From: Asterias amurensis
Taxonomy: Eukaryota; Echinodermata; Asteroidea; Forcipulatida; Asteriidae
DNA: 64,000 bases
Assembly: GCF_032118995.1 (NCBI RefSeq)
Contig: NC_092648.1
Location: forward strand, 759,001-823,000
Reading direction: 5' to 3'
Under the pieces are notes generated by a model. That model did no database searches and was not told where the DNA came from. It saw nothing but the letters and a program-made list of their open reading frames with translations. Positions 14,781 through 57,374 of the stretch are shown piece by piece. The stretch's first letter is position 1. Each line of letters begins with the position of its first letter. Made by a program: the position numbers and the translations under genes.

Positions 14781-14784
14781 GTAA

Positions 14785-15110: not shown

Positions 15111-15120
15111 TTCTACATGT

Positions 15121-23580: not shown

Positions 23581-23854
23581 AGGATGAAAGTTTATTCCAT
23601 CAATTAAAAAATTCAAAAAGAAGTTGTAATTGTTTCAATTAAAGATGGAAAGCTACATTACAAGACTGCATAAATGTGTGCAAACTTTAAAGTTTCCCTT
23701 CCGAACAAGTGAAGTTCAAAAACTGTTGTAGTTTTCAAGTGTATAATGTAGAAAATTACTTCTCAGTAAATTGCAAAACTATTTACAGCACCAATACAGT
23801 ACACTGAGGCAGTAAACCTGATGTATAACAATAGCATTTTCAGATTTTTGCTTC

Positions 23855-26800
23855 CAGGGGCTGCGAACAGTCTTCTTTAAAAGTGTTTCTTTCAATTGAA
23901 GTATCTAAGATCTTCAACTTTTGATGCCGGCTTGAAAATCAGCAACTGAACTCTCCGTCGTTCTCCCTCTTTAAGTGTCTGTTGCATAGAGGTTTCACTC
24001 TTCAGTGTGTGGCGGTAGCACTGATTTTCAAAGAGTTCCTCTTTTGCTAAAAAGCAGATTACTAAAAAGGATGGAACAATCAAAAGTGTTCATCTTTATT
24101 GGCCAAATGCCATCTTCAAAAATGTCTCCATCACTTGAAGCTCATCTTAAGTAAATTGCGTCTCTAGTAAGTCGCATCTCCAGGGTGCAACATTCATCTA
24201 CTTCAAACATCAACAATCTTGAGACAACAAGTTTGATGGGTCAACTTTTCCCACGGTTTCTTGATCATTCGATGTAGTCATAAAAATCAACAACTGACGT
24301 CTTTGTTGCTCCTTCTATGTAAGTGTCTGTTGCATAGATGTTTGACTCTTCGGTGAATGTTTGTAGCACTGGTTTTTGAAGATTTTCTTTTTTGCTAAAA
24401 TGCAGATTACTGAAAAGGATGCAACAATTAAAAGTCTTCATCTTTATCAGCCTATAATATCTTCTTCATAAATGTCTCCATCACTTGCAGATTATCTTGA
24501 GTAAATCCCGTCTTAGTAAATCGCATCTCCAGGGTGCATCATTCATCTACTTCAAACACGACCAATCTTGAGACAACAAGTTTCGAGTGTAAACTTTTCC
24601 CATGGTAGGCCTACCTAAGATCTTCATCATTCGATGCCCGTCATAAAAATCAACAACTGATGCCTCCGTCGTTCCTCCTCTTTAAGTGTCTGTTGCATTA
24701 GATGTTTGACTCTTCGATGCAAGGTTGTAGCACTGGTTTTCAAAGAGTTTTTTTGTAAAAAAAAACAGATTACAGAACATGATGGAACAATCAGCCAATC
24801 TTCTTCAGGGGCTACGGACTGTCTTCTTCAAAAGTGTTTCTTTCAACTAAGATCTTCATCTTTTGATGCCCTTCATAAAATCAGCAACTTAAGTCTCCGT
24901 CTTTCCTCCTCTTTAAGTGTCTGTTGCATAGAGGTGTCACTCTTCGGTGCAAGGCGATAGCACTGATTTTCAAAGAGTTCCTCTTTTGCTAAAAAGCAGA
25001 TTACTTAACAGGATGGACTATTATAAGTCTACATCTTTATCGGCCAAAACAATTGTGTTCTTGAAAAACGACTCCATCACTTGAAGCGCATGCTCAGTAA
25101 ATCACATCTTCAGTAAATCGCATCTCCAGGGTGCATCATTCATCTACTTCAAACACCAACATTCTTGAGACAACAATTTTGATGGGTCAACTTTTCCCAC
25201 GGTTTCTTCATCATTTGATGCCCATCTTGAAAATCAACAACTGATGCCTCTGTCGCTCATCCTCTTTAAGTGTCTTTTGCAAAGATGTTTGACTCTTCGA
25301 TGCAAGGTTGTAGCACTGGTTTTCAAAGAGTTTCTCTTTTGCTAAAAAGCAGATTACTAAACAGAATGGAACAATCAAAAGTCTTCATCTTTATCGGCCA
25401 CAACAAATGTGTTCTTCAAAAATGTCTCCATCACTTGAAGCTCATCTTCAGTAAATTACATCGTCAGTAAATCGCATCTCCTGGGGGCGTCGCTCATGTA
25501 CTGCAAACATGAAATATCATGAGACAACAAGTTTGATGGGTCAACTTTTCCCACGGTTTCTTCATCATTCGATGCCAATCTTAAAAATCAGCAACTGAAG
25601 TCTCCGTCGTTCCTCCTCTTTAAGTGTCTGTTGCATAGAGGTGTCACTCTTCGGTGCATGGCGATAGCACTGATTTTCAAAGAGTTCCTCTTTTGCTAAC
25701 AAGTAGATTACTTAACATGATGAAACAATCAAAAGTCTTCATCTTTATCAGCCTAATGTCTTCTTAAAAAATGTCTCTACCAGTTGAAGCTCATCTTCAG
25801 TAAATTGCATCTCCAGTAAATCACATCTCAAGGGTGCATCATACATCTACTTCAAACACCAACATCAATGAGACAACAAGTTTGACTGGTCAACTTTTCC
25901 CACGGTTTCTTCATCATTCGATGTCGTCATAAAAATCAACAACGGACGTCTTTGTTGCTCCTTCTATTTAAGTGTCTGTTGCATAGATGTTTGACTCTTC
26001 GGTGAAAGGTTGTAGCACTGGTTTTCAAAGATTTTCTTTTTTGCTAAAATGCAGATTACTGAAAAGGATGCAACAATCAAAAGTCTTCATCTTTATCAGC
26101 CTAATATCTTCTTCAAAAATGTCTCTTCCAGTTGAAGCTCATCTCCAGTAAATCACATCTCCAGTCTGCATCATTCATCTACTTCAAACATCAACAATCT
26201 TGAGACAACAAGTTTGATGGGTCAACTTTTCCCACGGTTTCTTGATCATTCGATGCCCATCTTGAAAATCACAAAACTGATGCCTCTGTTACTCCTCCTC
26301 TTTAAGTGTCTTTTGCAAAGATGTTCGACTCTTCGGTGCAAGGTTGTAGCACTGGTTTTCAAAGAGTTTCTCTTTTGCTAAAAAGCAGATTACTAAACAG
26401 AATGGAACAATCAAAAGTCTTCATCTTTATCAGCCAAAACAAATGTGTTCTTCAAAAATATCTCCATCATTTGAAGCTCATCTTCAGTAAATGACATCTT
26501 CAGTAAATCGCATCTCCCGGGGCGTCACTCATGTACTTAAAACATCAACAATCTTGAGACAACAAGTTTGATGGGTCAACTTTTCCCACAGTTTCTTCAT
26601 CATTCGAGTCCAATCTTAAAAATCAGCAACTGAAGTCTCCATCGTTTCTCCTCTTTAAGTGTCTGTTGCATAGAGGTGTCACTCTTCAATGCAAGGTTAT
26701 AGCACTGATTTTCAAAGAGTTCCTCTTTTGCTAAAAAGCAGATTACTTAACATGATGGAACAATCAAAAGTCTTCATCTTTATCAGCCTAATATCTTCTC

Positions 26801-27147
26801 AAAAAATGTCTCCTTCAGTTGAAGCTCATCTTCAGTAAATTGCATCTCCAGTAAATCACATCTCAAGGGTGCATCATTCATCTACTTCAAACATGAAAAT
26901 CATGAGACAACAAGTTTGATGGGTCAACTTTTCCCACGGTTTCTTCATCATTCGTTGCTCGTCTTAAAAATCAACAACTGATGCCTCTGTCGCTCCTCCT
27001 CTTTAAGTGTCTGTTGCAAAGATGTTTGACTCTTTGGTGCAAGGTTGTAGCACTGGTTTTCGAAGAGTTTCTTTTTTGCTAAAATGCAGATTACTGAACG
27101 GGATGGAACGATAAACAAATCTTCTTCAGGGGCTGCGGACAGAAACC
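23855..27147 (-). repeat. Satellite S2, left part
   Basis: Same satellite in W3. Core copies near 23,967, 24,314, 24,683, 24,922, 25,270, 25,624, 25,973, 26,308, 26,659 and 27,008. Mostly long units; pairs such as 25,200-25,560 and 26,250-26,600 are especially alike, suggesting a higher-order duplication of about 1,035 bp. Confidence 0.75.
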
Positions 27148-27392
27148 AGGATGTTGTATAATATACAAACAATGAGTATTTATAAGCCTGTGCAGTGGTG
27201 GTAATACTTTCATGAGTTGTTATATGGAATTTTCCATTCATCATGGCCAAGTTGAATGGAACGTTCCGTTTCTCAACAAATGAATATATTTTCTCCATTG
27301 GAAACAAAAATGCACGCTGAATAGAACAAAATACAAACTTAATGTATGGGGTGAAATGGTGTAAATAATGAAAACTGTGTGACCAACAATAA
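27148..27392 (-). repeat. V segment inserted in the W3 satellite
   Basis: Begins abruptly after ggggctgcggacag and ends at an A13 run. The minus frame 26,948-27,307 runs from V straight into the satellite core (KKLFENQCYNLAPKSQTS), giving a fused 119-codon frame. Confidence 0.6.
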
Positions 27393-28390
27393 AAAAAAAA
27401 AAATAGATTACTGAGCAGGATGGAAGAATCAACAAATGTTTTTCAGGGGCTACAGACTGTCTTCTCAAAAGTGTCTTTTCAACTAAGATCTTCATCATTC
27501 GATGCCCATCTTCAAAAACAACAACTGATGTCTCCGTTGTTCCTCCTCTTTAAGTGTCTGTTGCATTAGATGTTTGACTCGTCGATGCAAGATTGTAGCA
27601 CTGGTTTTCAAAGAGTTTTTTTTGTGTAAAAAAAACAACAGTTTACTGAGCGGGATTGAACAATCAAGCAATCTTCTTCAGGGGCTACCGACTGTCTTCT
27701 TCAAAAGTGTTTCTTTCAACTAAGATCTTCATCTTTTGATGCCCTTCATAAAATCAGCAACTGAAGTCTCCGTCGTTCCTCCTCTTTAAGTGTCTGTTGC
27801 ATAGAGGTGTCACTCTTCGGTGCAAGGCGATAGCACTGATTTTCAAAGAGTTCCTCTTTTGCTAAAAAGCAGATTACTTAACAGCATGGAACAATCAGAA
27901 GTCTTCATCTTTATCAGCCAAAACAAATGTATTCTTCAAAAATGTCTCCATCACTTGAAGCTCATCTTCAGTAAATTACATCTTCAGTAAATCGCATCTC
28001 CAGTCTGCATCAATCATTTACTTCAAACATCAACAATCTTGAAACAACAAGTTTGATGGGTCAACTTTTCCCACGGTTTCTTCATCATTCGATGCCAATC
28101 TTAAAGATCAGCAACTGATGCCTCTGTCGCTCGTCCTCTTTAAGTGTCTGTTGCAAAGATGTTTGACTCTTTGGTGCAAGGTTGTAGCACTGGTTTTCAA
28201 AGAGTTTCTTTTTTGCTGAAATGTAGATTACTGAACGGGATGGAACGATAAACAAATCTTCTTCAGGGGCTGCGGACAGTCTTCTTCAAAAGTGTTTCTT
28301 TTAATTGACACTTAAGTATCTAAGATCTTCATTTTTAGATGCCAGCTCAAAAATCAGCAACTGAAATCTCCGTTGTTCCGCTTTTTCAAG
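27393..28390 (-). repeat. Satellite S2, right part
   Basis: Resumes after V with cores near 27,554, 27,795 and 28,142 and ends at the W/Q border phrase caagaaaagtgacacac. Confidence 0.75.
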
Positions 28391-34142: not shown

Positions 34143-34924
34143 GTACTTCTGTCCTTGCAATTACTAATAGTTGTCTTGGGAAGGCGAGTATTTTTCTTTT
34201 TCTCCTACAGATATTGCTCCCTATGATGGTTAGACTCAAAGATTGCATTGTCTTTTCACTGAAGAGCTCCCTCGGAGGACAGTCTCTTTGATGAATGAGT
34301 GGAGTTGGGAAACATCTTGAATGCTGAGGATGGCATGAGCTTCATCAGCAGCGAGATGGTAGACAAACAGGGTGCATTTTAGCGATCAAAATCATTGACT
34401 GTTCTGGTTGAATTGGCCATTGGTTAATCACTGGCCAAAGACCAAAACAATTATTGGTTATGACTGCAAAAATGCACCCCAGGTTTGTGTCAATTTGACA
34501 TAACTTAAAGTGCATGAAAACTCTTAAATTTTGTTGCATCACCCTGCATATTCGGACCTCTGAACAGCATTTTTTTTTTCTAAATGGAATACATGCTATG
34601 AAACAGTTTTTCCATGTTGCTGTCCTGTAAAAATGCAACTTGTTACTATAAACGTCATCTGTCAAAGAAACAATGTTCATTTGATTCACAAACCTGAGCT
34701 GCACAGTTCATGTTTCAATCAAGAAAAAGTGTAGGTGTTTGAGTAACTAACTGCATAGGATTGAAGAAAGTTAACGGGTTGAACTAAAAAAGGCAATTTG
34801 TTCCAAAACTGTGAATAACTTCTAGTGTTTATAAAAATACCTATCCATAGAACTCAGAGAATAATTAAATGTTATCATTTTTGTTTAAGTTTTTTGGTCG
34901 AACTTACACCCCCATGTGCCACAG
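34143..34924 (-). repeat. Q8 module plus linker, diverged
   Basis: The most diverged Q copy. The minus frame 34,345-34,704 (119 codons) runs from the linker into Q but ends early within Q. A second minus frame at 34,033-34,248 crosses the left border. Confidence 0.55.
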
Positions 34925-35303
34925 GAAGAGCCCCCAGGAAGAGCCCCCCCAGGAAGAGCCCCCAGGAAGAGCCCCCAGGAAGAGCCCCCCCCCCCCCCCC
35001 CCAGGAAGAGCCCCCAGGAAGAGCCCCCAGGAAGAGCCCCCCAGGAAGAGGCACAAGGAAGAGCCCCCCAGGAAGAGCCCCAAGGAAGAGCCCCCCAGGA
35101 AGAGCCCCCAGGAAGAGCCCCCAGGAAGAGGCACAAGGAAGAGCCCCCCAGGAAGAGCCCCAAGGAAGAGCCCCCCAAGAAGACCCCCAATGAAGAGCCC
35201 AAGGAAGAGCCACAGGAACTGCCCCCCTGCCCTGGAACCATCTTAGGTGGCCTGGAGAAGGATAGGGACAGCTTCCTTTTTGAGTTCCATTAGCAGCAAG
35301 TTT
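34925..35303 (+). repeat. P9 block, expanded
   Basis: The longest P copy, roughly twice the usual size, from expansion of the ggaagagcccc units. It holds an uninterrupted run of 18 C at 34,985-35,002. The expansion opens long overlapping frames on both strands (for example 34,875-35,417 minus), which I read as repeat artefacts. Confidence 0.75.
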
Positions 35304-39613: not shown

Positions 39614-40882
39614 GCTTGAAATCATTATTATAGAATAATTATAGTAGAATAACCCTACTGAAATGGATATGCATTCATTTCTGCTTGATAATATTCAATC
39701 GCAATGTTGGTGGGGACACACGGTTATCTGTTATGGTATGGACTTGCTGTTTCTATCTTTGGGATTTGTTTATTAGCCCAATCTTTCGATCGGGCAGCAA
39801 AAAATTAGTCTATAGACTCATTAAGTTGTTCCTCTGCACGGAAATCTTTAGTAAAAGGCGAAAGATTTATGCGAATGCGGTGAAACCAGAGTAACCTTAA
39901 CAGGTTGAATTTTGATAGCGATCAAACTACTGTACACTTAAACTCATGGTGGTAAAAATTCCATAAAAATAATAAAATTTATTTTTAGTTGTATTACTTC
40001 ATTACTTTAATAAAATGATAATTTAATGCTCATATAAATCTAAATTTTACTAAACCATAGCTGTTGATATTGTGTTTTATCAGAAATATAGTTAAAAACA
40101 ACCACCTATTCCGCTGCATACCTCTGCGCACATAAACTCAATGCAAGGTTAACGCTGTAATTTATTCACGATGATGACCTATTTGAATATTCATCACCAC
40201 GCAAACGCTGGGGAGGACGCCCTCTTTCATCACCATAGTTTATTTATTTATGCCCTTTTACAGGGTAACCATAGAGCTGATAATCTATAGTCTGCAGACC
40301 GGGCAAAAATTATTTTGTTTCGAAGAGCGATAATTTGATGGCGACAAAAATAGGTTATATATTATATATTTAAACAAATTAAATTTAATGAAGTTACTCT
40401 ATAAATCTGTTACTTAACAGCTGGCTTTGACTAAACCACGAAACAAATGTTTCGCATATTTTGCAGGCTATGAAAAATTAACCCCACGTCTGCATTTTTG
40501 TACTGTTTGGCGCGCCATAGTTTCGTTCAATCAATCAACTCTCTATAAAGTGTTTGCTGTTGCACACAATGCGTCAAAACCGTGTTTTGGGTAGCGAGAC
40601 AACGAGATTGATTTTTACTTAATAATTTAGTCTTTTTGTGTGAGTTGCTATCACACCTCATTCAAGAGGATTGAACAACTTTCAGAAAGTTCAGTAGGAT
40701 GTTTATTTGACAGCTGTTTTACTGGACGAAGTCAGCGGGACCATCAGTCACAAAGTTTGGCCTTACTAAAATCCCTGGCTAGTCACACACACACACACAG
40801 TGAATGAAGACTGAAACGAGTTCCTAGACCACAGCTAAAACTAAAAATGTTTTGTTGGTGACTTCCTAGGATTTAAACAAGC
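39614..40882. other. Intergenic and presumed 5' region of the CFAP97-annexin gene
   Basis: No repeat family or gene recognised. A (CA)8 tract lies at 40,784-40,799. The transcription start cannot be placed from sequence alone. Confidence 0.4.
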
Positions 40883-43800
40883 ATGTTGAAGATGCCTCGA
40901 CAAACTGGTGCCTTTCCTCCGGCTAACAACCTCTTGCAGAAGAAATGGAACGAAAGAGCTTACAAACAACATTTGGAAAAGGTAGGCCTAATTTGAACTT
41001 TTCAAAGAGCTCTGATTTGATGTTGATTTTGACAATTTACGGAGCAGTGTCAGTACAGTGTTTTCTTTTGATAAATTGTTTTTAAAATACTTTTATTGAA
41101 TATTATAAATTTACTTTCAATTTGGCTGATATTGCGATTTTTTTTATATTTTATTATAAACCATGGATGAATGATGAATGAGTGAAAGAATGCTATGATA
41201 TGATGTTGTGTTTAACTCTTCTTGTTTTGTGCAAGGAAGCGGGTTAACTGGTACTGCGCGCACCCAACCCGTACTCCAGTCAACTTGTGCTCATGTTGGT
41301 CAATTCGTACTCCAAAGACCAACGAGTGTGAGATGCTCATGAGGGTTGAGTACCAGTTGGTTGGAGTAAGAGCTGACTCAAGTTCTTTTGCATTTAAAGT
41401 TATGATTTAGTATCTCTCCTTTCAAAAGGGGGCCGTTTGTAGGAGATTTCAATTTACCACGTTCTTCGTCAAATATGCATTGTAGGGTAATTATTTCTTT
41501 GTAATGTGCTAGGCTTGCGCCAATATGCAAGACTAGTTGGCGTATAGTCAAAGTGTACAGGATGTGCAATTGGTCATGCAAGGTTTTTTTGTTCTGACTA
41601 CGGACCAATAGGAGACCCCCTTTTTGTTCTGGCGCATTTACATTTATTGTCAGAAGATGCACAGTTCTAGAAGAATGTCTCTCTTTCGTCACAGCCATGG
41701 CTAGGAGCAACATCTTTCACAGATCACCATCCTCTGCTCCTCCGCTAGTTGAGATTATTCAGATGGCGGGTTTCATTTTGGCCTATTTTCTATGGAATTT
41801 AAGACTGACACTACCAAAATTTATATGCTTGACAAAAGCACAGAATTCTATTGTTTCGTAAGCCTAGATTCTTTTCTGACAGTAAGCATAGCCATGAAAT
41901 TAGGCCTGGCTGGCCCCTGGATAAATACCAATTTGTAATAACAGTGTGCTAATTTCTCTGGATTCATTACATACAGCTATGAGCTTGAGCTACTGTACCC
42001 AGACAAACTCAAGTATGACTTGATTGGAAGGGAAATGATATTGTGTACTTTGGTCACACTTCCTTCCGAATTTAATAAATACTGGGTTAAATATATAAAC
42101 AAAACTTGCCTTTTTATGTCAAGGTGTAATTTTTTTACAATCGGTCAACTAAAATCAAAACGACATTCTTTGGCAAATGTGATACGTGCCAAAATAAAGG
42201 AATATTATGAGTAGTGTGTACACAAGTAGGGCACGTTCTTCAGGCCATGAAGTAGTAACTGATGGTTGTCTAGGTAACCCTATTGTGTACGGGTCATAGG
42301 TTGTTTACCAATGGCTTCTGGTTACACATGCCGCTAGATCTAGACAAACTGAGGGAAAATAAAACACTCCAAATATATTGCCAACTGAATTGGCCATACT
42401 TGAATGTCATTTGGAAAACATTCTGGACAAGTGATTTTTGATTAATTGCTAGAAATTCAAAATCACTTCCAGGATTTTAATTGTTATTGTTTGATTTTTT
42501 AATGTACTTTACAGATTGCTCAGACTATTTCTTCCTGTATTTAAATGTCCTTATTTTTCTTGTCTACTTCCAGAGGAAAGCAATGACTACTGGTCTGAAT
42601 ACCAGGAAACCTAAATCTTACCTGCATATGCAGTTGAACCTCAAGAAAATACAGGTTGGTTATGTCTTATAATAAATAACATTACAAAAAACATTCAGAT
42701 AAGGTCTATGAGTTCGGGCATAATTGTAAATAAGCCTAAAAAATAACAAATACATTCATTTGTGCCAACAGAGATTCACAATTGATTGTTTATAACAATT
42801 TTATGGATGCACTTTGGTTGTTACCATGGAGGATTGATGTTTTTGCTTTTAAATTTATTCATCGTAAAATTGTACCGAGCTAGAGTTGACTTGTTTGTGT
42901 GACTAGCCCCCCCCCCCAATATTGCCCAGTGACCTCCATGGTGACACTAAGCTAACCTAGACTCTTATCTAAAGCGACACAACTAATTTTATGTCAATGT
43001 TATTGTTCTTAAATTGTTCAAATGGAGGCATGAATTTCATGTAACTATACCTTTTAAGAGGATCTGAACAGACCATAACTACCGCCACACTATTTATTTG
43101 TTATTAGTTACTGATTAGTTTACAAATAATGAATGATTATCCTTTGATGAATGATATAATCTTTTCATTCAACAATCGTTTTATAACATCCAAGTAGACC
43201 TTTGTCATAAATCTATAAGCGTATGTAAACAGTGTGCAAGATTGTTCCCTGGCATCAACTATATTTTGGCATTGTAAACACGTGCATTTACTTAGTGTGC
43301 AATAGTTTAAAAAGGGACAAAAACATATTGATTTGATCAATGAATGCTGCTTGCCCAACAATCTTCAATCTTATCTTATATAGGCACCCTATATGAGTAA
43401 ATTGTAAATTTCTACTGCAGCATTTCGAAGGCACCAAGGCAATGACCCAGGGAGCATGGAGGCAATTACCTTTGTTGCCTTTGTGAAGTATCAGGCCTGC
43501 TTCTTGAGTATTCAATAAAAGTACCTTCTTCCATCAACTATTCTAGAAGTCTCAATTCTTATAAGCTATCTTATTTTCATTCAGCTTGAAGAAGAGAGAC
43601 AAGAAGCGATTGACCAGGAGAATCGGATTCTTCTAGCTAAACTGACCACAGTCATCAGGTCAGCTGGACAACTAGACAACTGGAATGAGGAATATGATGA
43701 CCTCCCTAAAAGGTTGGTTTAGAATCTTGTTGTCAACCAGAGCCCAATTTCAGAAAACATTACTTGACATGTTTCTGCTTAGCAGAAATGAGCATGACAC

Positions 43801-46381
43801 CGTCATTGTACATGTGGGATGGTAGTTTGGCTGGTAACCTTATTCTGGTAAGATTAATTTTGTTGTGCTTACAGTGTAAGTGTAGCTGCCTTTTTGTGCT
43901 TAGCAGCTCTATGAAATTGCGCCCAGGGCTCAATTTCAAAGCCTATTACGCACAAAAACTTGCTGAGCACGGAAAAGCATTGCTTAAACAGAACTAGGTT
44001 ACCAGCCCAAATTAGGTTTACATTGTTGTGACCGGTGCCCCACTCAATTTTTGCTTAGCAAAGAAATTTGTCAAACAGTATTTTCTGCTTTTTTAAAACA
44101 GCTCTGTGAAATTGGCCCCAGGAGTCAAGATAGGTAAACAACCTTCAAATGAAATAGTGCAGTCCTCTTATATTTCCGAATGAAATCCAGACCAGTGTGA
44201 ATTGTTTTGACAGCTGGTGGTACTTGACATTTTGCCAGCGGGCTCTCAACATTGCAATGGACTAAATGCCAACATCTGTTCTCTTCTTTAATTCATTTGG
44301 GTGGACTGTGTAGTGCAGTCATCAAATTACTCAGTATTTAGCGCTAATTAATTGGTGGGTAATTAATGGGTTTATCATGCTATTGTTGCATATTTTTCTT
44401 GTACATGTTTAATGCTTCCCATTTCCATCCCCAATGCAGTGTTACATCTATTTAAATGATTTCCCATGTACATTGTTTGAATTAACCTCTTGTCACTGGG
44501 CAAGCTTGTCGGTCTAGAGGTAAGACATCTGCTCTAGAATGACGTAGGTCTTAGGTTCAAATTTATCCCTCTTAGTCTTGAGTATGCCTGTAGTTTTTTA
44601 CAAAGGACCCTGGAACAAATTGAGACATACAGTGGTTATCACACACACATTGAAGGGTTAAACCAAACAATATTCTTGACGCGTTTATGATCTCATAAAA
44701 GTGGTGATTTACACCTCAAACGGCTTAAACTAAATATAAAATTTCCCTTTTTTTATTTCTAGTTTGAACAAACCTCACATGCAGCGAGAACAGGAGAGGA
44801 TTGCAACCGAAAATAGTAAATTGACAAAGAAACTGACTAAAGTTACCGCAGAATATAATCTGGATCAATGGGTAAGATAAAGACAGACAATTACACTTAT
44901 TGATATCTACCTTTATTTGTTAGAACTGTTACATGTATTTGTTGTCACGCTTGTTTCTTGGCTATAACGAGTAACCTAGCACAGTTTCTTAAAGGCAGTG
45001 GACACTATTGGTGATTACTAAAAATATTTACTAGCATAAAACCTTTCTTGGTGACGAGTAATGGGGAGAGGTAGATGGTATAAAACATTGTGAGAAACGG
45101 CTCCATCTGAAGTGCCATAGTTTTCGAGAAAGAAGTAATTTTCCACGAATTTGATTTTGAGACCTCAGATTTAGAACTTGAGGTCTCGAAATCAACCATC
45201 TAAACACACACAACTTCGTGTGACAAGGGTGTTTTCTTCTTTCATTATTATCTCACAACTTTGATGACCGATTGAGCTCAAATTTTCACAGGTTAGTTAT
45301 TTTATGCATTAGTTGAGATATACCAACTGTGAAGGATAGTCCTTGATGACAATTACCAATAGTGTCCACTGCCTTTAAGCCATTGACTGCTCAAACTTTT
45401 GGTTTTCCGGGGGTCGATTTCACAATAAGTAAGGACTAGTTCTAACTGAGGACTAGTCTGAGGAGATATTCAAAGCTTAAGGTTAGTCTTATGTTAGGAC
45501 GATTAACTCAAAACAGGACCAGTCTTAACTCTTTGTGAAATTCACCCAGGGCAACTCATCTGTTTTTCCTGGACTGTCCAGATTTCCAAGAAGTAATTGA
45601 CATCTTTGAACCATAGCCATCTATTATATATCAGCACCTATAATTGGTCAATATCTCCTTGACAAGGATCAATAGTCCAATCAATAGTTAACTGTTTGGA
45701 ATGTTTGGCATTGACGTCATCACAGCTCCAATGTTAGAGGCAAAGCAATGACAACACAAAGGAAATGCACAGCTACGTAGTACCCTAGGAGCAAAGGATG
45801 GCTAAAGAGCAATGTTTGGTTATTTCTAGTGGAGGGCACAATGTTCAATGATTTGCATAGTGTTTCAGGCCTCAAAATAACCCACGGCACCCACAGCAAT
45901 TGCTATTGTGCCCTGTGCTTTTGATGTGGTGCCATTTGCAAAGCTTCAATAATTGAAGTTTTCCTCATATTACAAGTTCCCCTAATCAGAGGAAAAACAA
46001 AGTTCAAGGCCTGGTGTTTTTTCTTTAATTTTCTTCAGTAGCTTTTCTGAAACATTTGGCAAAATTCCTTGCAAGATTTGAAGGTATTTGATTAAATATC
46101 TAATCAATGAGTAATCTCCTTTTTATCTCTTGGTGAGTGCGCCATACTCAATGATAATACTCAATACTCAACATTTGGCAAAATTCCTTGCAAGATTTGA
46201 ATGCATCTTATTTAATATCCTTTGATTTTATTGTTTGTAGGAGGATGAATATCTTCTTCATGGATACTATCTCTCATTGAAAGCTCAAGAAACTAAAGGT
46301 TTTGAAGTGGATACCAGAGGCTTTGAAGATGATGAGCCACATTTCTATAACAGAGATAGAGAGGTTGCGACGGCTAATGGA
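40883..46381 (+). CDS. Part of the fusion gene: CFAP97/Hemingway region (exons 1-5)
   Basis: Key family features in order: a Trp-containing start (KKWNERAYKQHLEK), PKSYLHMQLNLKK (residues about 45-57), the coiled-coil-like EEERQEAIDQENRILLAKL, LDNWNEEYD at about 90-98, KSLNKPHMQREQERI, and EDEYLLHGYYLSL. Short vertebrate members such as CFAP97D1 have the same succession. Intron phases are 0, 0, 2, 0 and 0. Introns hold SINE and fold-back elements; intron 1 (40,982-42,573) has a 111-codon minus frame without other support. Confidence 0.85.
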
Positions 46382-49300
46382 GTGAGTTCAGTTAATGGGA
46401 CTTTGGGCTTTGGAGTACAGACCTGGGAATACACCAAGGCCAACTGTTGCCCCTGGTCTTGGCCTTGGTGCCCCTTCAACAGTTTCCTATAGACTTTAGG
46501 ATTTTCCAATGAAAGTGCCCTTTGCGAGAAAAAAAAATGGCCTTGCCCTCTGAAGAAAGGTGCAAATCCAACCCAAATCGCCGACTACTCTTTGTAAATT
46601 GGTGAAAGATTGGCTTCAACTTACAGTTGTGAAGTGAACAATTATATAATTTTTGTATATATCTATTGACTCTACTGAAGCGCTATACACACATTGTACA
46701 TTACATCCATGAAGAGTCAATAAATTAAAGTACGATCTTTATTTTGTAGTCTGTGTCTCAGTTTGATGGTGGACGAAGCGAGACTGAGGAGCAAGCTGAT
46801 GAACTTAGTACCACTACAGGGAGTACAAGCAAGCCCAAGACAACAACCAAGACAACGGTGAGTGCCTTCTCTAGAAGGGCACCGGACTCAAGCTCTGGTG
46901 TTTCTGTTCAGCAGAGTGGGGGTTCAAGTCCTGTTCTTGACACTTGTCTATTATTGCTGCGTCCTGTGGATGGGACGTAAAGCTGTAGTTCTTGTGTTTT
47001 GTGTAATGCACGTAAGAGAACCCGGTGCACTAATAAATCATAAAGAGAAGTTGTTCGGTGTTTCTGGTCTGATCGTAGTGATTCAACTCTGTATCGTCAG
47101 CCCTCAAGCACTGTTATAAAGAGGTTGTGCTTACAAAGAGAACATTCTGAAGTCCTGACACTCACTTTACTTCAAGCTTCTTTTTGTCGCTGTCCTCTAA
47201 AGAGTTAAATTGGCAGGTCCCAGCGATCTTGTTATAAGGAAAGAGTCGACTGTGTATTTTTCTTTTTATACAAGACTTGAAGGTCAAGACATGTTTTATA
47301 GTTTAATTATTTTGCTTCTTGATGCAGCAGCAATCTAAGAAGGCACCAGGACCATTCCGAAGGGTCAAGCCCCAGCCGCGACTTCCTCTTCTTGGACAAC
47401 CAAGGAAAAAGGAAGAAGAAAAAAGAAAGGTAAGATTTTATTAAAAGATGACAGGCAAATCAATATCATGGGCCAAATTTCATAAAGCTGTGGAGCAGAA
47501 AGTACTGCTTGACAAATTTCTTTTGTTAGCCAAAACTTGGTGGGGCACCGCCCACATCAATGCAAACTTAATGTAATTTTGGCTGGTAACCTGTTCCTGC
47601 TAAGCAATATTATTCTGTGCTTAGCAAGTTTGTGTGTTTACAGGCTTTATGAAGTTGTGCCTCATTGATTTTTTCAAGAGAACTATGAAAAAGCTAAACA
47701 CAGTGCTTCATAAATGTCAATACAAAATCGAGTGTAAAAGGAAAATTATATGTTATGGTTCTTGTCTTGCATGCTGCGTCGATTAATAAGATAATAAATT
47801 GTGTTTCCACTTGATTGATTTTGCAATAACAGAAAGAACTAGCGAGTAAACCCGCACCTTACAATGACAAGGAAGATGCAGCTAAACTCTTCAAAACAAC
47901 TAAAGAAATGTGTAAGTACTTGATGTGAAATTAGACATTGTTTAATTCCAAAATGAATTTTATTTTTAGGATTTGACTTTGTTTAGTGATATAATTCATC
48001 AGAGTGTTTTTGTTACATTTCTGTGAGCTAGGAGCACAATTTGTGTAGGTTAGTTTTCTTTCACTTGTTGTCAAAATTGATTGTTATTTCAAGTAAAAAA
48101 CCACAAGGGAAACAGACTGGATAAAATGTTATTAGTTTGGGTTAAACTGAGAAAAATTTCTGGGAGCAGGATTTGAACCTGCAACTTCAACAATAACGTG
48201 CTGGAGGTGTCTTAAGCTGTTGGTGGTCTACCTATTTGTAAATATGTTTGTTCAGGGAGGCCAGTTGTTAGAAGCCAATCTACCTGTAACTGCCAAATAT
48301 AGCCAAGGGTCACATCTAAGTTGATTATACAACCTGGGAAGTGGCAGCCAGGGGATCAATGTTTTATTTCAAATGTCAATTTAACAAAATCTCAAGGGAT
48401 TCTAACTAGGTGAATTTTGAGATTATTATTTGTCAATGTTACTACAACAAAAGCTCTTTGTCTTTAAAAATAACCACAGCCATTTTTAATTTTTTCTTCT
48501 GAATGCAGCAAGAGCCGATCCAGTGCTTACAAAGACACTTGCAAGACGGACCTACAGTCAGAGACAGCAAACAATGACTACATTTGAGAAGCAGTATGAG
48601 CTGGTAAGATACTCAGACTAAAATCCCCTCAGTTCTCTAAGTCTCCCATCGGTTTGTTTTCATAAACAGAACTCTTCAAAGTAATTAATAATATTAGTCT
48701 GATTTTAGAAAACTAATCACTTTAATGCTGAAAAGATATAAAGAAAGTTTTGTGGAGTTCCTTTTGATTGTTTTAAAAGATTAAACCCCAAAGAAAGTGT
48801 TGTTTGAAGATTAAACAAAGTTTATATGACACATTCACAAAATCGTGATAGTGTGATTGGTCACCATCATAACGGCAACATTTTCTTTGGTGAAGTTTCC
48901 TGAATATTTCATTATGTCTACTGACTAAAAATGATTGACCTTTTTGTGCTTGCTAATTGTTTGCAGGGAACTTACGTGTATGGCAGTGATTTTTATAAAA
49001 CTGTATTTGCAAGAAAAAGTGAATGGCTTTTCAACCCTAGCAGAGCCTTTCTTGGTCGAAACGTCAGGCCATGAACCAGGTCCTTGCGGTTGGTAAACAG
49101 TTTGCAACAGCTACTTTATTCAAAACTGTTTTTGTTGATTTGTTTTCAGGATCTTGAAGTGGAATTAATCGAAATAATGGATGATGAATGGAATGAATTT
49201 ATCACAACTCTTCTTGCAAAACGAGAAATGATTGATGCTACAGCATGTCATCAAGCACTCAAGGTATGCCTCAATAACTGCTGTCTTTGTGTAAAAAAAC

Positions 49301-52300
49301 ACATTATAAATTACCTTCAAAATGATGTGTGGATTGTTGGTTCAAGTCCCGCTCTCGTTGATTTTTCTTTTACAACCCCAAATAATTAATTACATATTTA
49401 AAACTTATTGTTTGTCCTCTGTGTGACCCACACTATTGATTCAAATTTATTTCTATTATCTATTTCTCTTCACAGGGTGGCCTACCTCTCACAGATACAA
49501 TGATTGAACTCCTGTGTACACGAAATAACTCAGTAAGTCAGAAATAAAAACAATAGATAGTTCCAGCTAGATGCCATCTTTACCGGCAACTTGGGTTTTG
49601 GCTTTGAGTTGCATTAAGTGTTCAAATTTGTCTACGCAGCCAAGTAATTCACCGACCGATTATGCAAGGAATTTGATAAAACTCCTGCATGCAATATTTA
49701 CACAGAAGGCATACTTGTGTGTTCATAGAATGACTAACATTGCCTATAAGTCGCTGGTTTTGATCCAGTCCCTACAGCACTCCACCAGCCATTCAGTGAA
49801 GTCCCTTTAATCCCCTGGCTTAGCAGATTATCTTAGTTTAGAATTCAAAAGCTGATTTCATTTTAGTGGGATCCTTTAGAATAGTCCCTTTAATCCCCTG
49901 GCTTAGACAGATTATCTTAGTTTAGAATTCAAGAGCTGACTTAATTTTAGGGGATCCTTCAGTGCGGTTTCTCTAATCCACTGGCTTAGCAGATAACCTT
50001 AATTTAGAATTCAAAAGCTGATTTTATTTTAGTGGGATCCTTCAGAGCATTCCCTTTAATCCCCTGGCTTAGACGGATTGCCTCAACTTAGAATTCAAAA
50101 GCTGATTTATTTTAGGCAGTCAGGTTGGCGTTCTGGTATATTTCCTCACCTTCCATCTCTGGAACCCAAGTACAAATAAGGTTTAAATTCTGCTGAGGGC
50201 ACTTTGTGGATTGGGTTTTCAGTCCCTACCTGACTGTGTGGGTTTTCCCTGCAATAATTCTCGGGGTTTTCCTCCCACAACTAACCCTGAACCCTCTTCC
50301 ATTGTCTTCTCTTCATTGGGTTCTTGGCGAGTACAGTGATTAAGTTTACTTTTCTGTGAGTCCTGTGCTTCACAACCATAATTAATCATTGAAATTAAAA
50401 TGAAATGTACATTGAGTCTTTCATGGCCAGCTTACATCATTGATGATTCTCTCTGTTTCTATCACCAGGCACTCAGTTCAATCAAGAAGACGTATAATAA
50501 GGAGTATTCCACTAACTTAATGGATGACATTAAGAGTGAAACCAAGGGTCAACTCAGACATCTCTTCCTTGCTCTAGCTAAGGTAGGTTCAGCTTTGACT
50601 ATCGGAGCAAAACACTTTGATTGATGAGAGAATGGTTGTGTTCATATTGTAATATCACTTGGATTGAAAGTCGGTAATAATTTCAGAAAGGAACAAGGTA
50701 TAACCACAGTGCATCCCGATTGACGCATGTATTATAAAGTAATTTCACATGAAGCAATTCACAGGAAACTAGTTCCAGGCAATCTCCAAGAAGAGAATCC
50801 ATTCACATTTAGATATTCACATATTATTCTTGGGGATCGTGACACGTTACTCATGTGCTACCAGAGTGGTTCTGTAGCATGCACTACAAGTGGTAGCCTC
50901 AAAATTGCCTGTAAAAAGTTGCCTCTTTGTGACAAGTCCCCTTAACTTCAGCAATTGAACCAGAGTCTTTAAAAAAAAAAAGTGTGTCCTGGTGGCTGTA
51001 TTTGCAATATACCTCCTGTAAAGGTTTCCTGATTTTATCAGAATCGGTGAGCCGGGAAGTTTAAAATGTCTATGACTGACTAGTTGTTTATAGCATATCC
51101 AACTGGAGAGTATTGCTGTAATTGTTATTTTCCTGTTTTAATCATAGTCAATAAACATGGAAGTTCAAGTTTTCCTTTCTGTGTATTTATTTGAAAGATT
51201 TACTATAGTTATATTTAGGGTACCCACATGGAGAGTCGGAGTACATCAGTCGATGCTTAGAGCTTCCTTGTTTTAGTCATCGCAGTTAACATAATTAAGA
51301 TTTTGAACGATTGATTGTTGTTATTTGTAGGGTACCCGTATGGAGAGCACAGCAGTGGATGCTGATAGAGCTGAGCATGATGCAGAGATCTTGATGGGAG
51401 AACCTGATAATGAGAGATGGAAAGCAGACTCGGGCAAGATGGCTGAGTTGTTCAGAATAGCAAGCTTTGCTCAAATTAGAGAAGTGCTGGAACATTATGA
51501 GCAGGTCAGTAATTGACTACCCCCATTAGCTTGTGCACAGTGTACGGGCCTTGGTGAACCTGTGATTTAGCAATACTTGTGTACGCATTTCTTATGCCCA
51601 GTGTATGAGCCTTGGTGAACCCTGAAGAATCAGTGGCAAATAACTCTTTCTTTTTAACCCCTGGTTCTTCTTGGAACCAGCACAGCTCATTGAGATCTTT
51701 ACTCAAATGGCGTCTCTGCAAACCTCCCATGATTGGTCTTATGCAACAGTCCAGTGGGTTATTATACGCCTCTCTTAATATTCATGCATGACATCATAAT
51801 TCTTTCCCAAAATGAGGCTAAAGGCGCACGCCCGCCACCACCTGCAGTGGCTGCGCCCATAGCATCGTTTTGGGTTAGGATTGTAACGTACCTCATGCAT
51901 AAATAAGAGAGACGTATTAATACGGATTGTTGATGACTCTATTGAAATGAATGGAGTTGTATAACTTCACTCAAGAGGAAAAAAACTAATGATGTTATTT
52001 GGTTTTGATTATTAGCTGACTGAGAGCAGAGTCCAGGATGAGTTTCGCTCGACGCTAGCAGGAGACTATCGAGATGCAATGCAAGCATTGGGTAAGTTCT
52101 TATAGTTCCTGTAGACCCTTACAAGGAAACTGGGTGTTTATATTAACTGTGTTTAGATTTGTTGCATGTTGTGGCCAAGCGGTCTAGTTAAGCTGGACCC
52201 AAGCTCTGTTGTTGTCAGCAGCAGGGTGTGGGAAGACGCCCACATGGAAAGTCACTTTGGTTTGTTTTCCCCATGAATAAGAACGTTGGTTTTCTCTATG

Positions 52301-55300
52301 TGCATCTATTGTCATCTTTGCCATAATTTACCCTTGTACAACTTTTAAACCATGTGATAATTGAATGGATTCAGTTCATATTGTGTCACTATAATTGACC
52401 ATTGTACAACTGTTATGCCATATATTAATTGACTGTATTTTTTGGATCACTGCACTGACTGCACAATAAGGTATAATACTATTGCACCACAGATGTACAT
52501 GTATCTTTCTCAACATATTTTAGGCCTATGCACAAACATAACAATATGATATAATACCTTGTAATTCAAAGCCAATTGTGCATTTGCAAAAGTACACAAC
52601 CCTTTTGCACAATGTATTTATTCTGTATTGTAATTTAATATGATGGTCTTTTGTGATTATTTGTGGTAATTGCACAAATAAAAAAAACACAAGTTATGAA
52701 GTGATTTAGATCTAATAAGAATGTCAACAATGGCTGATTTGATCTTTCAGTTAAGTGTCTGTATAACTGTGCTATGTACATGGCAGAGAGACTTCGAATT
52801 AGTCTAGTCAGGAAGAACAGCTCCAGCTTAATCCGCCTTCTTGTCACAAGATCTGAGGTGAGGTTCTACTTAATTTATACTGATTTTCCTACATTTTAAA
52901 AATTATTATCATTATGAATCTTATTTTGTATTGATAAATCTGTTTGATGCATTTTTACCTAATATATTTAAGGTTTATATGATTTGTAATACACAGGGTA
53001 AATTTAAATAGTTTTGGGAAATTGACTATAGCTGGATTTGAATCTGTAACCTCTGGATCAATGCGCCAGTACTCTAAGTTGCATCCCCTCAAGGTGATCC
53101 ATCTGCTGCCGATTCCAAGGTTGTAATGTAAACCTTGGTGTGATACCTGGCCATACGGCAGTCACGGGTTGATTGGCTTCTGACTAGCGCCCCGAAACAA
53201 AGATATTGACAAACTAGGGAGAGTGTCAACATTAGGTATAGACAGCTCATTTGGTAGAGCATCTGCACAATAATCCCAAGATCACAGGTTCAAATCCTGT
53301 TCTAGTCAATTATTCACTGTTAAACCCAAAATTGTTTTGGGTCAGAGTTTAAGTTTATTTAAAGACCCCACACCTATGTGTTAGAATAAGTGTAGAGTAC
53401 CTGTAAAGTTGTGATACTATTAGGTAAGATTGCTATATATATATGCCAAGATTATTATTTGTATTATTAATCTTACAGATTGAAATGTGTTACTTTAAAA
53501 TAATAAATAGTTTGTGTAAACAGTCAAGTTAGTCCATGAACCTTAAGCTGCTTTGAAATTCATGTAAAGAAAGATGACCAGGCATATTTAATAACTTTTT
53601 TATATGCTAAAAGGGACTAGTAATCTTTCCTCATCATTGTGAAATTAATTTGTTTTTAATTTTTCTGTGTGTACATTAGATTGATATGCCACAGATAAGG
53701 AAGGCTTACAGACAGCGTTATGGTGAGACATTGATGGATGCTATAGAGACTCTATGTAAGGAGCCTTGTAAGAAAGCTCTGGTCAGTATGGTTCTTGTAC
53801 ATGGAGCTCTCAAGAATCAACAAGATCAAGAAGAAGATCAGAAGGTAAGCTTTTTTTTATTCAACACACCCTCTTTGGGAATAGTTAAAGCTATAGTAAA
53901 TAGTAAACTTGCACATTCAACCATTTATAAAATCTCTTTTGGAGTGTTGGCTCTGAAAAGAGTAGGTGTGGTCTCGACATTTTGAACAGTATACTCTGCT
54001 CATCTTCAGGAGACATTGGTGTGGTCAGGTTGGCATAGTGGTATCTTTCCTCACCTTCCACCTCCAGGACCCTGGTTCAAATCACGCCGGGGTACTGTGT
54101 GTTGATTGGGTTTCCAATCCCTGCCTGATCACATCGGTTTTCTCTTGTTATGTAAAAGTCTCTCGGGTTTTCATCCCACAACTAAAACCTTCCTTGTCTT
54201 CTCTACATGGGGGTTCTTGGGAAGTATTATGAGTATAAGTCCAATTTTCCAAAAAGAAAATCATTCCATCACATTCAAGTAAATGAATAAATAAATTATG
54301 GATGAACTCAAAACAAATTCTCTGATCTCAGAAAAAAAACAGTTTATGAAGAAATATGCATGAAATTTGGACCAGTGTCCAACTTCTTTCAAACTGATCC
54401 AGGGTCTGGCTTTAAACACAGCAACAAAATTCAGTTCCAGGACATAAGAGTATATTATGGTCTTGTTTATGATTTTAACATTTTTTAATTTTTTTACAAA
54501 ATATAAACTTCTACATGTGAAATAAAACATCTTGTAAATCAGCTTTGAGTTATGTTACAAACACATGAATCGACTTAATTTCAATTGAATTTCCATTTAA
54601 TTAATAATTATTTATTTTCTTTGCAATGATTTCTCTTCAGGCACGAGGTGCTTTCAGCGCCACTAAGGTGCCAACCCTCCCTAAGGTGGCTCCTCCTAAA
54701 GCGAAACCCCTACGACGTCCCTCACCTAACAAAGCAGCCATACTGAAACCAAGCAACCCTCTGATGCAAAGTATCAAGACACAAGCTGCAAAAGAGTCAA
54801 TCCTTGTACCTCCTAGGAGGGTCGTCAAACCTAAGAAGACTGTGACTGTGGTGGACCCTAGAGCTAAACAGGTAAGGTTCTCAGGTTCTGGGTGAACACT
54901 ATACATATTTGGTTCCACTCAGTGTTTTAGTTTAATGAATAATAAATAAATAAATAATAATATTAAACCATTTTTATATAGCACAATACACATAGTGATA
55001 AAACATGTCCTTTGTGCTTTTGAAAATACAAATACAAGATGTGCAAATACCTAATACAAGATGTACTGGGTCTGAAGGTATATTAAACAGGATTGGTAGA
55101 GCTGACAAAATAGTCAGACAGTGTTCATGTTTAATGTGATCAATTATGCACATGAAATGACCAACTGGTTGCAACCTGTAAAAAATGGGGCTGAATTAAA
55201 TAATAATAATAATAATAATAATAATCCGTTTTTATATAGCGCTTTTCACACCCGGAGGGCGTCCCAAAGCGCTTCACATTATTAGCTCTGGTCACTTAAT

Positions 55301-56425
55301 GTGCGCTACTCGGCTAAATCAATCACAAGAACCATCTGTGCCCTCACAGGTACCCATTTACCCCTGGGTGGAGAGAAGCAATTATAGTTAAGTACCTTGC
55401 GCAGGGACACTTTGTAGTGTGAGCTATGAGAAAACAGTGAAAAATCATGCACAGTTTTCCTTATTGTTGGTATTTTTTTAAAAGGTTTTAAGATACTTTT
55501 ATTCTCAAATATGACCTCGTTACAGAGGGAGATATTTCACCGAAATAGTTCCAACTTAAAAATCAGTCAAGCTTTCAGACTAACGCTAAACACTGATGTT
55601 TTTTATCCCAACAAATCCTGCATAAAACCTTTGAGATATGAAACTCTGCGTTTTTACAAGAATACAGTCTTGTAACATCTGCAGTAACACCATGGAAGTA
55701 ATTTCTGATAAATTGTGATGATTTTGATAATAAACAATTGTGTAGCAAATTCCTTTGTGTAACATTATCTGACGACCTGCTTTTATTGCTTGTTGTTACA
55801 GTCTCCACCATCTTCAGGCCAGAGATCAAATACTTCAAGACAAAGTCTCTTTAAGGCTAAGAGACCTTTACCAGTGTCTTCAAGAACATCCTTAAACTCA
55901 CCAGGAAAGTCTTCAGTCAAATCAGCTGAAACGAAGGGAAGGGAAGAGAAGACTGAAGAAAAACCCACATCAGCAACAAGAGCTACGTCAGGTGCATCTC
56001 AGAAAGATGTAGTGGACCCTGAAACTGCCAAATCTGAAGCTGCATCTGATAAAACATCTCAAGGAATTGATAACGAGAAAGATGCTACTCAAGAAAAGAT
56101 GATAGAGAACAAGGACACTTCCAATGAAACTGAAGATGCTGGTATTGAATTTACAAAAACTAATGAGAAAGAGTTAGTTCAGACAGAGAGTGATGGAGAC
56201 AAGACGCAGACAATTGAAGAGGATCAGTCAGATAAGACTGCTGCCGAACCACAAGATAAGCCTAAGGCTGTTGCTGCTTCACCTGAAACCAATGCACAGG
56301 TTGAGCAATCTATTGAGCCAGTTAAACCAAACTCACCAACAGAAAAACCAAGTCAAGATGATAACTCAAGGGCAACAGTGAGCCAACAAGGAGCAAAGAC
56401 TAAACAGGAGAAAGAAACTTCTTGA
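40883..56425 (+). CDS. CFAP97/Hemingway-domain protein fused to a degenerate annexin core, 867 aa, 18 exons
   Basis: Exons: 40883-40981, 42574-42654, 43585-43712, 44763-44871, 46241-46381, 46750-46857, 47328-47429, 47833-47911, 48509-48603, 49150-49263, 49476-49532, 50469-50582, 51331-51504, 52016-52091, 52751-52857, 53680-53844, 54641-54871 and 55802-56425. Every junction is GT/AG and the phase is kept throughout. The ATG has A at -3 and an in-frame TAA three codons upstream. Residues 1-186 match the CFAP97/Hemingway family known from cilia and flagella; about 187-256 is a Ser/Thr/Lys linker; about 265-572 is a four-repeat annexin; 584-867 is a basic, Pro-rich stretch and then an acidic, polar tail. 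A ciliary role with membrane or scaffold binding is inferred, not shown. Exon choice was made by eye, so small errors are possible. Confidence 0.85.
43739..44121. mobile_element. Fold-back element (GGGCCCAATTTCA family) in intron 3
   Basis: Starts gagcccaatttcag, ends tgaaattggccccag, with tgcttagca motifs in both orientations and a mid-copy restart at cagggctcaatttcaaag. The X-module minisatellite segments belong to the same family. Confidence 0.75.
44497..44645 (+). mobile_element. SINE-like tRNA-derived fragment in intron 3
   Basis: gtcggtctagaggtaagac (A-box-like) and ttaggttcaaatttatcc (B-box-like). Confidence 0.5.
44989..45378. mobile_element. TIR fold-back element (GGCAGTGGACAC family) in intron 4
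   Basis: The best-preserved copy: ttaaaggcagtggacacta at the left and tagtgtccactgcctttaa at the right are perfect inverted ends, with a central palindrome around gacctcagatttagaac. TTAA may be part of the target site. Confidence 0.85.
45411..45547. mobile_element. Short fold-back element in intron 4
   Basis: gggtcgatttcacaa at the left and ttgtgaaattcaccc at the right, with ggactagt motifs between. Confidence 0.65.
46382..46749 (+). other. Intron 5 with possible alternative 3' end
   Basis: If intron 5 is retained, the frame runs 36 more codons to a stop at 46,490-46,492, and an AATAAA follows at 46,719-46,724. That would give a CFAP97-only protein of about 222 residues. The signal lies only 25 bp before the exon 6 acceptor, so it may be accidental. 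Confidence 0.3.
46860..47105 (+). mobile_element. SINE remnant in intron 6
   Basis: gggttcaagtcctgttcttg (B box) followed by attgctgcgtcctgtggatg, ggacgtaaagc and gcacgtaagagaaccc, a tail I remember as common in marine invertebrate genomes. Confidence 0.6.
47325..47330 (+). promoter_or_regulatory. NAGNAG tandem acceptor at exon 7
   Basis: The acceptor reads gcagcagcaa. Use of either AG keeps the frame and only adds or removes one Gln in the linker. Confidence 0.6.
47469..47663. mobile_element. Fold-back element (GGGCCCAATTTCA family) in intron 7
   Basis: gggccaaatttcataaagct at the left and ctttatgaagttgtgcctc at the right. Confidence 0.7.
47833..53844 (+). CDS. Part of the fusion gene: four annexin repeats (exons 8-16)
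   Basis: Repeat 1 (about 266-335): DKEDAAKLFK, LARRTYSQRQQ and FEKQYELDLEVEL. Repeat 2 (about 338-409): HQALKGG, IELLCTRNNSALSSIKKTY and LMDDIKSETKGQLRHL. Repeat 3 (about 418-492): EHDAEILM, FRIASFAQIREVLEHYEQ. Repeat 4 (about 496-572): AERLRISL, LLVTRSEIDMPQIRKAY, LMDAIETL. The hydrophobic and Arg pattern is clearly annexin. The type II calcium loop (GxGT plus a distal acidic residue) is missing in all four: EMSRADP, KGGLPLTD, RWKADSGKM and VRKNSSS take its place. Calcium-dependent membrane binding is therefore unlikely by this route. Confidence 0.85.
48096..48372 (-). mobile_element. SINE in reverse orientation in intron 8
   Basis: The B box appears inverted (ggatttgaacctgc), and cctgggaagtggcagccagg mirrors the ctgctgcttcccagg phrase in the W modules. 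Confidence 0.6.
49803..50116 (+). repeat. About 83-bp tandem repeat, four copies, in intron 11
   Basis: Units start with ccctttaatcccctggctta at 49,803, 49,886, about 49,967 and 50,052; each contains agaattcaaaagctgattt and gggatcctt variants. It ends where a SINE begins. Confidence 0.85.
50117..50400 (+). mobile_element. SINE in intron 11
   Basis: cagtcaggttggcgttctgg, tttcctcaccttcca, ttgggttttcagtccctacc and tcctcccacaactaaccc recur in order in the intron 16 copy at 54,019-54,245. Confidence 0.7.
50583..51330 (+). other. Intron 12, nothing recognised
   Basis: A plus frame at 50,727-50,945 lacks any supporting signal. The phrase gggtacccacatggagag (51,219-51,236) resembles the start of exon 13, a possible decayed duplicate of its edge. 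Confidence 0.35.
51762..51920. mobile_element. Fold-back element in intron 13
   Basis: ttatacgcctctcttaatat at the left pairs with aaataagagagacgtattaa at the right; atgcatga / tcatgcat lie inside. Confidence 0.7.
52175..52310 (+). mobile_element. SINE-like fragment in intron 14
   Basis: gtggccaagcggtctagtta resembles a tRNA-Ser/Leu type A-box region; the B box is not clear. Confidence 0.4.
53091..53345 (+). mobile_element. tRNA-derived SINE in intron 15
   Basis: tagacagctcatttggtaga (A box) and ggttcaaatcctgttctagt (B box), preceded by gcgccccgaaacaaagatat; the same layout as t1 and t2 in W. An inverted SINE fragment precedes it at about 53,020-53,090. Confidence 0.7.
54019..54245 (+). mobile_element. 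SINE in intron 16
   Basis: gttggcatagtggtatcttt and ctggttcaaatcacgcc give both boxes; the tail includes ttcatcccacaactaaaacc. Confidence 0.7.
54641..56425 (+). CDS. Part of the fusion gene: disordered C-terminal tail (exons 17-18)
   Basis: Exon 17 is rich in Pro, Lys and Arg (PKVAPPKAKPLRRPSPNK). Exon 18 starts Ser-rich and then becomes a Glu/Asp/Lys/Thr/Gln tail ending at TGA 56,423-56,425. No domain is visible; disorder is inferred from composition. Confidence 0.75.
54938..55160 (+). mobile_element. Diverged copy of the TTTTTATATAGC repeat in intron 17
   Basis: An AAT-rich start and ccatttttatatagcacaat mark it as kin of the next element. Confidence 0.5.
55198..55418 (+). mobile_element. 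(AAT)n-headed dispersed repeat in intron 17
   Basis: (AAT) tract, then ccgtttttatatagcgcttt, cccaaagcgcttcacatt, acccatttacccctgggtgg and accttgcgcagggacac, a repeat I remember as widespread in marine deuterostomes. Confidence 0.65.
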
Positions 56426-57374
56426 ATTGTTTGAACAACTTTGAGTCAAGCCCAACTCGTCCATCAACAAAACATACGCTTTTGCCCGTTGAGTCTCCTC
56501 AAATTGTACCCCCTTAAATCACGGGTACCGCTCCCATCACAGCCCGTCTTTCCAGTGCTGCTGCTTTGAGTTTGGTTGTATCACAACCTGACCACTTTGG
56601 GATGTTGTCCAAACAGCATATCTTTGGTTTGCCCAAGGAACGATGGCATTTCTTTGGCATTTCATCCACAATGGCTGCTGCCAAGCTGCCTTAATGAACC
56701 ACATTGCTTATTGGCAATCAAACTAAAATGCAAATCAGGAAAAAAGCTTGAGAGCAGCAAGAACCCAACAAGGAACAATGGAGAAAGAATCTTCTTGAAT
56801 GATTTGAACATCATTGGGTCAAGTCTAACTCAGCCATCAAACTAAAAAGCCAATCAAGAAGATTGCTTAAGAGCAATCAGTGAGATTCAGATATAACAAT
56901 CTTCTAAAAGCAGCCTTCAATCTAAAAAGCAAATCATGTCAAGACTGTAAGTTGTACTCGACCTTTTCATGACAATATTAATCTGTCCAAATTAATATTT
57001 TTGTACATTAAACAAATTTGTATCATATTTTTAATATCAAGAACTTGTAAGTAGTTTGGGATGCTTCCAAAAGTTCTACAATCCATATGACTAGTATTTC
57101 TCTGACTCTTGCCACAACTCGGTATGGTTTATTTTTTACTAGTATTTATAAAGTGAAAGTAACGGTATACACTTCAAGGTTATTTGCCGTACTGTCTGGA
57201 TCATTATTTCAAGTCAAAGTTTGTTTATATTAATAAGTACCCCGGTCAGTTTACGTTACATTGGGGTGTTTAAACGGCTGATAAAGACATAGTTGAAGCC
57301 AAATAAGACTCGCTGGCTGCGCGTGTTGGGTGCGCCAATTTACACATGGGTATGCAATATATATCTAAAATGAG

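Follow-up and report, generated by a model that had tools for sequence, protein, structure and literature searches.

The plus strand of the window, by which we mean the whole 64,000-nucleotide stretch analyzed here (positions 759001–823000 of contig C1), carries at 40883–56425 a gene model in which a CFAP97/Hemingway N-terminal half is joined to a four-repeat annexin core in a single reading frame of 867 amino acids. The fusion and the names of its two domains are well supported computationally. Judging from the sequence, it is likely that the frame belongs to one gene, because a single frame covers both domains, the introns are typical of the respective families, the linker exons resemble coding DNA, and the distribution of in-frame ATG codons fits this reading.

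The 18 exons, spliced from the window DNA, form an open frame with one terminal stop. The gene spans 15.5 kb, all 17 introns are of the GT-AG type, and the phases are consistent throughout. The start codon lies in exon 1 (40883–40981, aa 1–33), just downstream of an in-frame TAA stop at 40874. The CFAP97 half continues through exons 2 (42574–42654), 3 (43585–43712), and 4 (44763–44871), each placed by the spliced frame and by spliced alignment, into exon 5 (46241–46381), where the frame, a PDB match, and spliced alignment agree and where CFAP97 homology ends at about aa 155. The linker is encoded by the polar exon 6 (46750–46857) and the basic exon 7 (47328–47429), which were assigned by frame and codon score. 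Annexin repeat 1 begins in exon 8 (47833–47911) and continues in exon 9 (48509–48603). Exon 10 (49150–49263) covers repeats 1–2, exons 11 (49476–49532) and 12 (50469–50582) repeat 2, exons 13 (51331–51504) and 14 (52016–52091) repeat 3, exon 15 (52751–52857) repeats 3–4, and exon 16 (53680–53844) repeat 4. These exons rest on the frame and on spliced alignment, and exon 12 is in addition the only exon of the window matched by the annexin Pfam profile in the search of the genome. The tail comprises exon 17 (54641–54871), which is basic and rich in P and K, and exon 18 (55802–56425), which is basic, then acidic and polar, and closes with the stop codon TGA; both follow from the frame and are without a Pfam match at E up to 1. 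An end of exon 8 at 47909 was rejected because the frame is lost there, and the donor two bases further on, at 47911 (AAATGT/GTAAGT), leaves the frame open.

At the protein level, the CFAP97/Hemingway half (aa 1–186) is followed by a polar linker (187–265), the annexin core (266–575), and a basic and then acidic tail (576–867). The Pfam profile Hmw_CFAP97 (PF13879) matches aa 30–127 with an E-value of 7.7e-16 (59.1 bits against a cut-off of 25.6), and the domain is complete, covering profile positions 1–99 of 100. The Annexin profile (PF00191) matches four stretches with an E-value of 1.3e-35 (121.7 bits, cut-off 25). Nothing else exceeds the Pfam cut-off in the 867-aa protein, linker and tail included. 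A match of the linker to CFAP298 (E 0.082, under the cut-off) was judged to be due to chance. Among PDB sequences, the chain nearest to the CFAP97 half is 8snb_4T, annotated as "Cilia- and flagella-associated protein 97" (E 3.1e-26, aa 11–155), from a structure that we take to be of sea urchin sperm. It is followed by CFAP97D1 chains; in total, five of the 12 rows are of the CFAP97 type, and the remaining seven, with E-values from 0.034 upwards, are weak. For the core, the nearest chain is annexin VI (1avc, E 3.2e-65); the best 60 of its 75 PDB matches carry the name annexin or ANXA2 without exception, and engineered fusions are among them. The calculated pI is 10.1 for the linker, 6.1 for the core, 11.1 for tail residues 576–720, and 4.3 for residues 721–867. 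An earlier note on this DNA had read 18 exons at 40883–56425, the junctions 46381/46750 and 47429/47833, and a CFAP97-type N-terminus, four annexin repeats, and a polar tail; the present model reproduces each of these in one predicted frame, and both profiles that the note named for a check match the protein above their cut-offs.

Independent support for the exon borders was obtained from spliced alignments made with our own script, in which each query was confined to its own part of the gene. The ANXA6 query, aligned to 47001–55000, returned nine annexin exons with the inner borders of the model. The 8snb_4T query, aligned to about 40–48 kb, returned exons 1–5, again with the inner borders of the model, exons 1 and 5 being clipped at the ends of the query. 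When each query was aligned over 40801–56500, ANXA6 scored 305 against a maximum of 141 among 20 shuffles, and 8snb_4T scored 268 against 102 among another 20. Consequently, chance is excluded for both halves.

Intron positions also link each half with its family. In the CFAP97 half they are 24/0, 51/0, 91/2, and 127/0 in 8snb numbering, and the CFAP97 paralogue on contig C12 has three of these four (24/0, 51/0, and 91/2). The CFAP97 gene on C6 has only the 91/2 intron in common with the CFAP97 half. The gene on C4, with spliced alignment scores of 73 and 95, gave no convincing model and was left out of the intron comparison. The introns of the annexin core lie at 18/1, 49/0, 87/0, 106/0, 144/0, 201/0, 227/1, and 264/0 in ANXA6 numbering. 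All eight are present in each of four of the nine annexin models from the same genome (C20a–d), which carry two further introns at 118/1 and 167/0. Of the other models, C21b and C10 have seven of the eight, the partial C20e has six, and C21a and C7 have four.

An alternative is that the frame belongs to two neighboring genes. In that case, a CFAP97D-type gene would end at 46490 or 46978, and a separate annexin gene would start from the ATG at 47322. This codon lies just upstream of exon 7 and in frame with it, so that an annexin gene starting there is conceivable, and the AATAAA motifs at 46719 and 47032 leave room for such a gene or for a short CFAP97-only isoform. Two acceptors are weak: of all AG in the gene, 13.8% match the score of the exon 6 acceptor and 13.3% that of the exon 8 acceptor. 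Two donors are middling, those of exon 5 (matched by 4.5% of GT) and exon 8 (5.0%). However, AATAAA is common in the window, with 153 copies in 64 kb on both strands, and the ATG at 47322 is not unusual, since exons 2, 12, and 17 likewise have an in-frame ATG upstream before a stop is reached. At the −3 position of a start codon, A or G is favored; the ATG at 47322 has T there and sits inside a good acceptor, whereas the ATG at 40883 has A. Going upstream from exon 8, the frame meets a stop at 47827 before any ATG. Exon 6 contains no ATG in its frame, and a stop lies ahead of it at 46747; if this exon is coding, an upstream coding exon is therefore needed. Exon 6 looks coding, and its donor is strong (0.7% of GT are as good). 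With exons 1–5 and 8–16 in the training set, none of 5837 overlapping open windows from introns reached the codon score of exon 6, and 13 reached that of exon 7; with a slightly smaller training set, the counts were 1 and 29. Continuing the frame beyond the ends of exons 5 and 6 gives intron-like scores, with 5457 and 2398 of the 5837 windows being as good. Open blocks of 60–250 nt with a length divisible by three and splice sites at least as good as those of exon 6 occur seven times in the gene, and each of the seven is either an exon of the model or such an exon with another acceptor. In the tail, the codon scores of exons 17 and 18 are reached by about 68 and 11 of the 5837 windows, for windows of 105 nt. 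Of the three frames, the modeled one scores highest in codons in all 18 exons, a result that is independent only for exons 6, 7, 17, and 18, because the others belong to the training set. On balance, two separate genes are quite improbable.

The CFAP97 half is 32–38% identical to five relatives, and the annexin core is 24–29% identical to 11 other annexin rows. Profile searches of the genome (491.5 Mb in 23 contigs) were run exon by exon, so the counts are lower bounds: there are at least four CFAP97 matches, on C4, C6, and C12, and at least 32 annexin matches, on C7, C10, C20, and C21, and once on C1 in the window, none of the 32 being on C4, C6, or C12. The CFAP97 profile missed the fusion gene itself, in which the domain is split over four short exons. 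The paralogue on C6 is 73% identical to 8snb_4T, which makes an echinoderm source plausible if that chain is from sea urchin. There was no sign of a recent duplication as the origin of either half: apart from the window, the query with the N-terminal half hit only the C6 gene, and the query with the core hit nothing beyond the window. Both searches go exon by exon and are insensitive; other annexins of the same genome, 24–29% identical, escaped the one with the core. Subfamily placement by tree failed for both halves. Because both form long branches, neither tree gives a sure nearest relative or a supported neighbor; the annexin tree included 11 of 12 rows, the partial and poorly aligned C20e having been dropped beforehand, and the C10 annexin also has a long branch. 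The shared long branches were considered as a sign of co-evolving halves, judged weak, and set aside. On C20, five annexin models, four of them with the ten-intron structure, lie within about 0.45 Mb (438–474 kb, 795–803 kb, and 850–892 kb).

The annexin core differs from ordinary annexins in its calcium sites. The GxGT type II loop is found in none of its four repeats, and the acidic cap in only one (repeat 2). The nine annexin models of the same genome, one of which lacks repeat 1, keep the loop in 7/8, 9/9, 8/9, and 9/9 cases for repeats 1–4, and the acidic cap in 7/8, 9/9, 9/9, and 9/9. Losses of single loops are ordinary, as the ANXA6 rows show: in the first half, repeat 1 has GFGS in this place, and in the second half, the loop of repeat 3 is lost. 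Because all four type II loops are gone and the other annexins keep nearly all of theirs, the core is probably calcium-blind. Ordinary calcium-dependent membrane binding is not expected, and calcium-dependent phospholipid binding is predicted to be absent. Thus, where the earlier note proposed a scaffold using an annexin fold, the annexin identity of the core is supported, but the accompanying hint of membrane binding is weakened. A similar case, by description only, is annexin A9, in which the type II calcium sequence is lost in all repeats according to PMC3588008. The same review states that about a third of annexin domains lack a calcium site, that annexin A9 reaches membranes by other mechanisms, and that a K/H/RGD motif is found in the loops of annexins lacking type II sites.

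For the role of the protein, an axonemal scaffold is the reading that we prefer, at about an even chance. The CFAP97 segment would bind the doublet microtubule, like CFAP97D1 in mouse sperm. The annexin core would act as a calcium-independent scaffold for protein or tubulin, not as a calcium-switched membrane clamp, and the basic tail (pI 11.1) might add a contact to microtubules or other anionic surfaces. That the protein acts in a cilium or sperm tail can reasonably be proposed from the CFAP97 family, with its mutant and doublet data for CFAP97D1; a scaffold function of the core is suggested by analogy only, with flagellar annexins of diplomonads. CFAP97D1 is associated with TSSK6 and EFCAB3 on mouse sperm doublets, and Tssk6-null doublets lack CFAP97D1 and EFCAB3 and keep all MIPs (PMC13066092). 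CFAP97D1 is also listed among additional MAPs of sperm (PMC11779644), which would place it on the outer doublet surface. Its loss is accompanied by unstable axonemes in mouse sperm (PMC7444823) and, in the chordotonal cilia of the fly, by broken ones (PMC10425847). In diplomonads, a Spironucleus annexin is reported to label outer doublets, and an interaction of alpha-14 giardin with tubulin is reported as well (PMC4863580). Counting against the axonemal reading, a strict RFX X-box has no match in the window; the relaxed form has two candidate matches on the minus strand, at 42278 in intron 1 and at 59621.

Several other roles may be considered for a genuine fusion. The core might still bind membrane independently of calcium, in which case the protein would tether membrane to axoneme. 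The strongly basic tail would suit such a tether, as would annexin A9, which is described as interacting with membranes without type II sites (PMC3588008); against it, the K/H/RGD motif is absent from the whole 867-aa protein, and we regard the tether as possible but doubtful. The CFAP97 segment might also have drifted to another partner, so that the protein acts off the axoneme, for example at the basal body, in the acrosome, or in the general cytoskeleton. Its low identity to the five relatives and its long branch allow for this, but the complete Pfam domain and the axonemal defects seen in those family members whose mutants the cited papers describe make it unlikely. Finally, the lost calcium loops and long branches could indicate a decaying or non-functional fusion. 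This is very improbable, considering that 2.6 kb of spliced frame contains no inner stop, that every splice dinucleotide is intact, and that the modeled frame scores best in every exon, including the four outside the training set.

The usual view of annexins is that of membrane proteins switched by calcium, and CFAP97 proteins are seen as small stabilizers of the axoneme. The fusion protein resembles CFAP97, CFAP97D1, CFAP97D2, and Hemingway (PF13879) in its complete domain and in the introns common to the C12 paralogue, but the five CFAP97-type PDB chains are short (158–231 aa), whereas in the fusion protein aa 186 is followed by a linker, an annexin core, and a tail. With annexins (PF00191; among solved chains, annexin VI and III are nearest) it has four ordered repeats and canonical introns in common; it differs from them in its divergent core without type II loops and in the additional CFAP97 head and long tail. 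We know of no annexin A9 fused to CFAP97. The diplomonad flagellar annexins, alpha-14 giardin and Spironucleus annexin 3, are located at axonemes and offer an analogy of place only (PMC4863580). The string "CFAP" is absent from the text of PMC4863580, and "Annexin" from the texts of PMC11779644 and PMC10425847. In the open-licence literature, no CFAP97–annexin fusion was found by titles and abstract starts among the matches listed, in agreement with the earlier note, whose author knew of no described protein with both. As far as searched, this is an unpublished domain architecture built from two known families. More tentatively, and at clearly less than an even chance, the protein may be an axonemal component specific to its lineage, with a calcium-blind annexin core that was recruited, by fusion to a doublet-binding CFAP97 segment, to serve the doublet microtubule as a structural module; it would then be the first annexin known to us that is built into an animal axoneme. 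One protein with both domains would be a natural tool for asking whether the annexin fold can serve as a plain axoneme scaffold, and sperm doublet maps of related animals could be examined for it as an extra component.

A local array of diverged direct repeats occupies window positions 1–37200 and, on C1, about 727600–793500; it stops a few kb before the fusion gene. A 300-nt probe from 5403–5702 has 13 copies, itself included, that are spread over about 66 kb of the C1 plus strand and are 81–100% identical; its other 23 genome matches are pieces of about 50–84 nt. Within 11984–28223, a 151-nt unit occurs in 27 copies, mostly 230–360 nt apart and in two blocks, and neither of the two open frames checked within it matches a Pfam family at E up to 0.01. 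Inside the larger repeats, a C-rich minisatellite with a unit of 13–14 nt (CCCCCAGGAAGAG-like) lies at 34905–35213, with shorter stretches of the same type near 3222, 9463, 18313, 21697, and 29290. On the other side of the fusion gene, an exon-like open frame on the minus strand at 62956–63246 matches FMN-dependent dehydrogenase (PF01070, E 2.6e-24) and is probably part of a gene running towards the 3′ end of the fusion gene.
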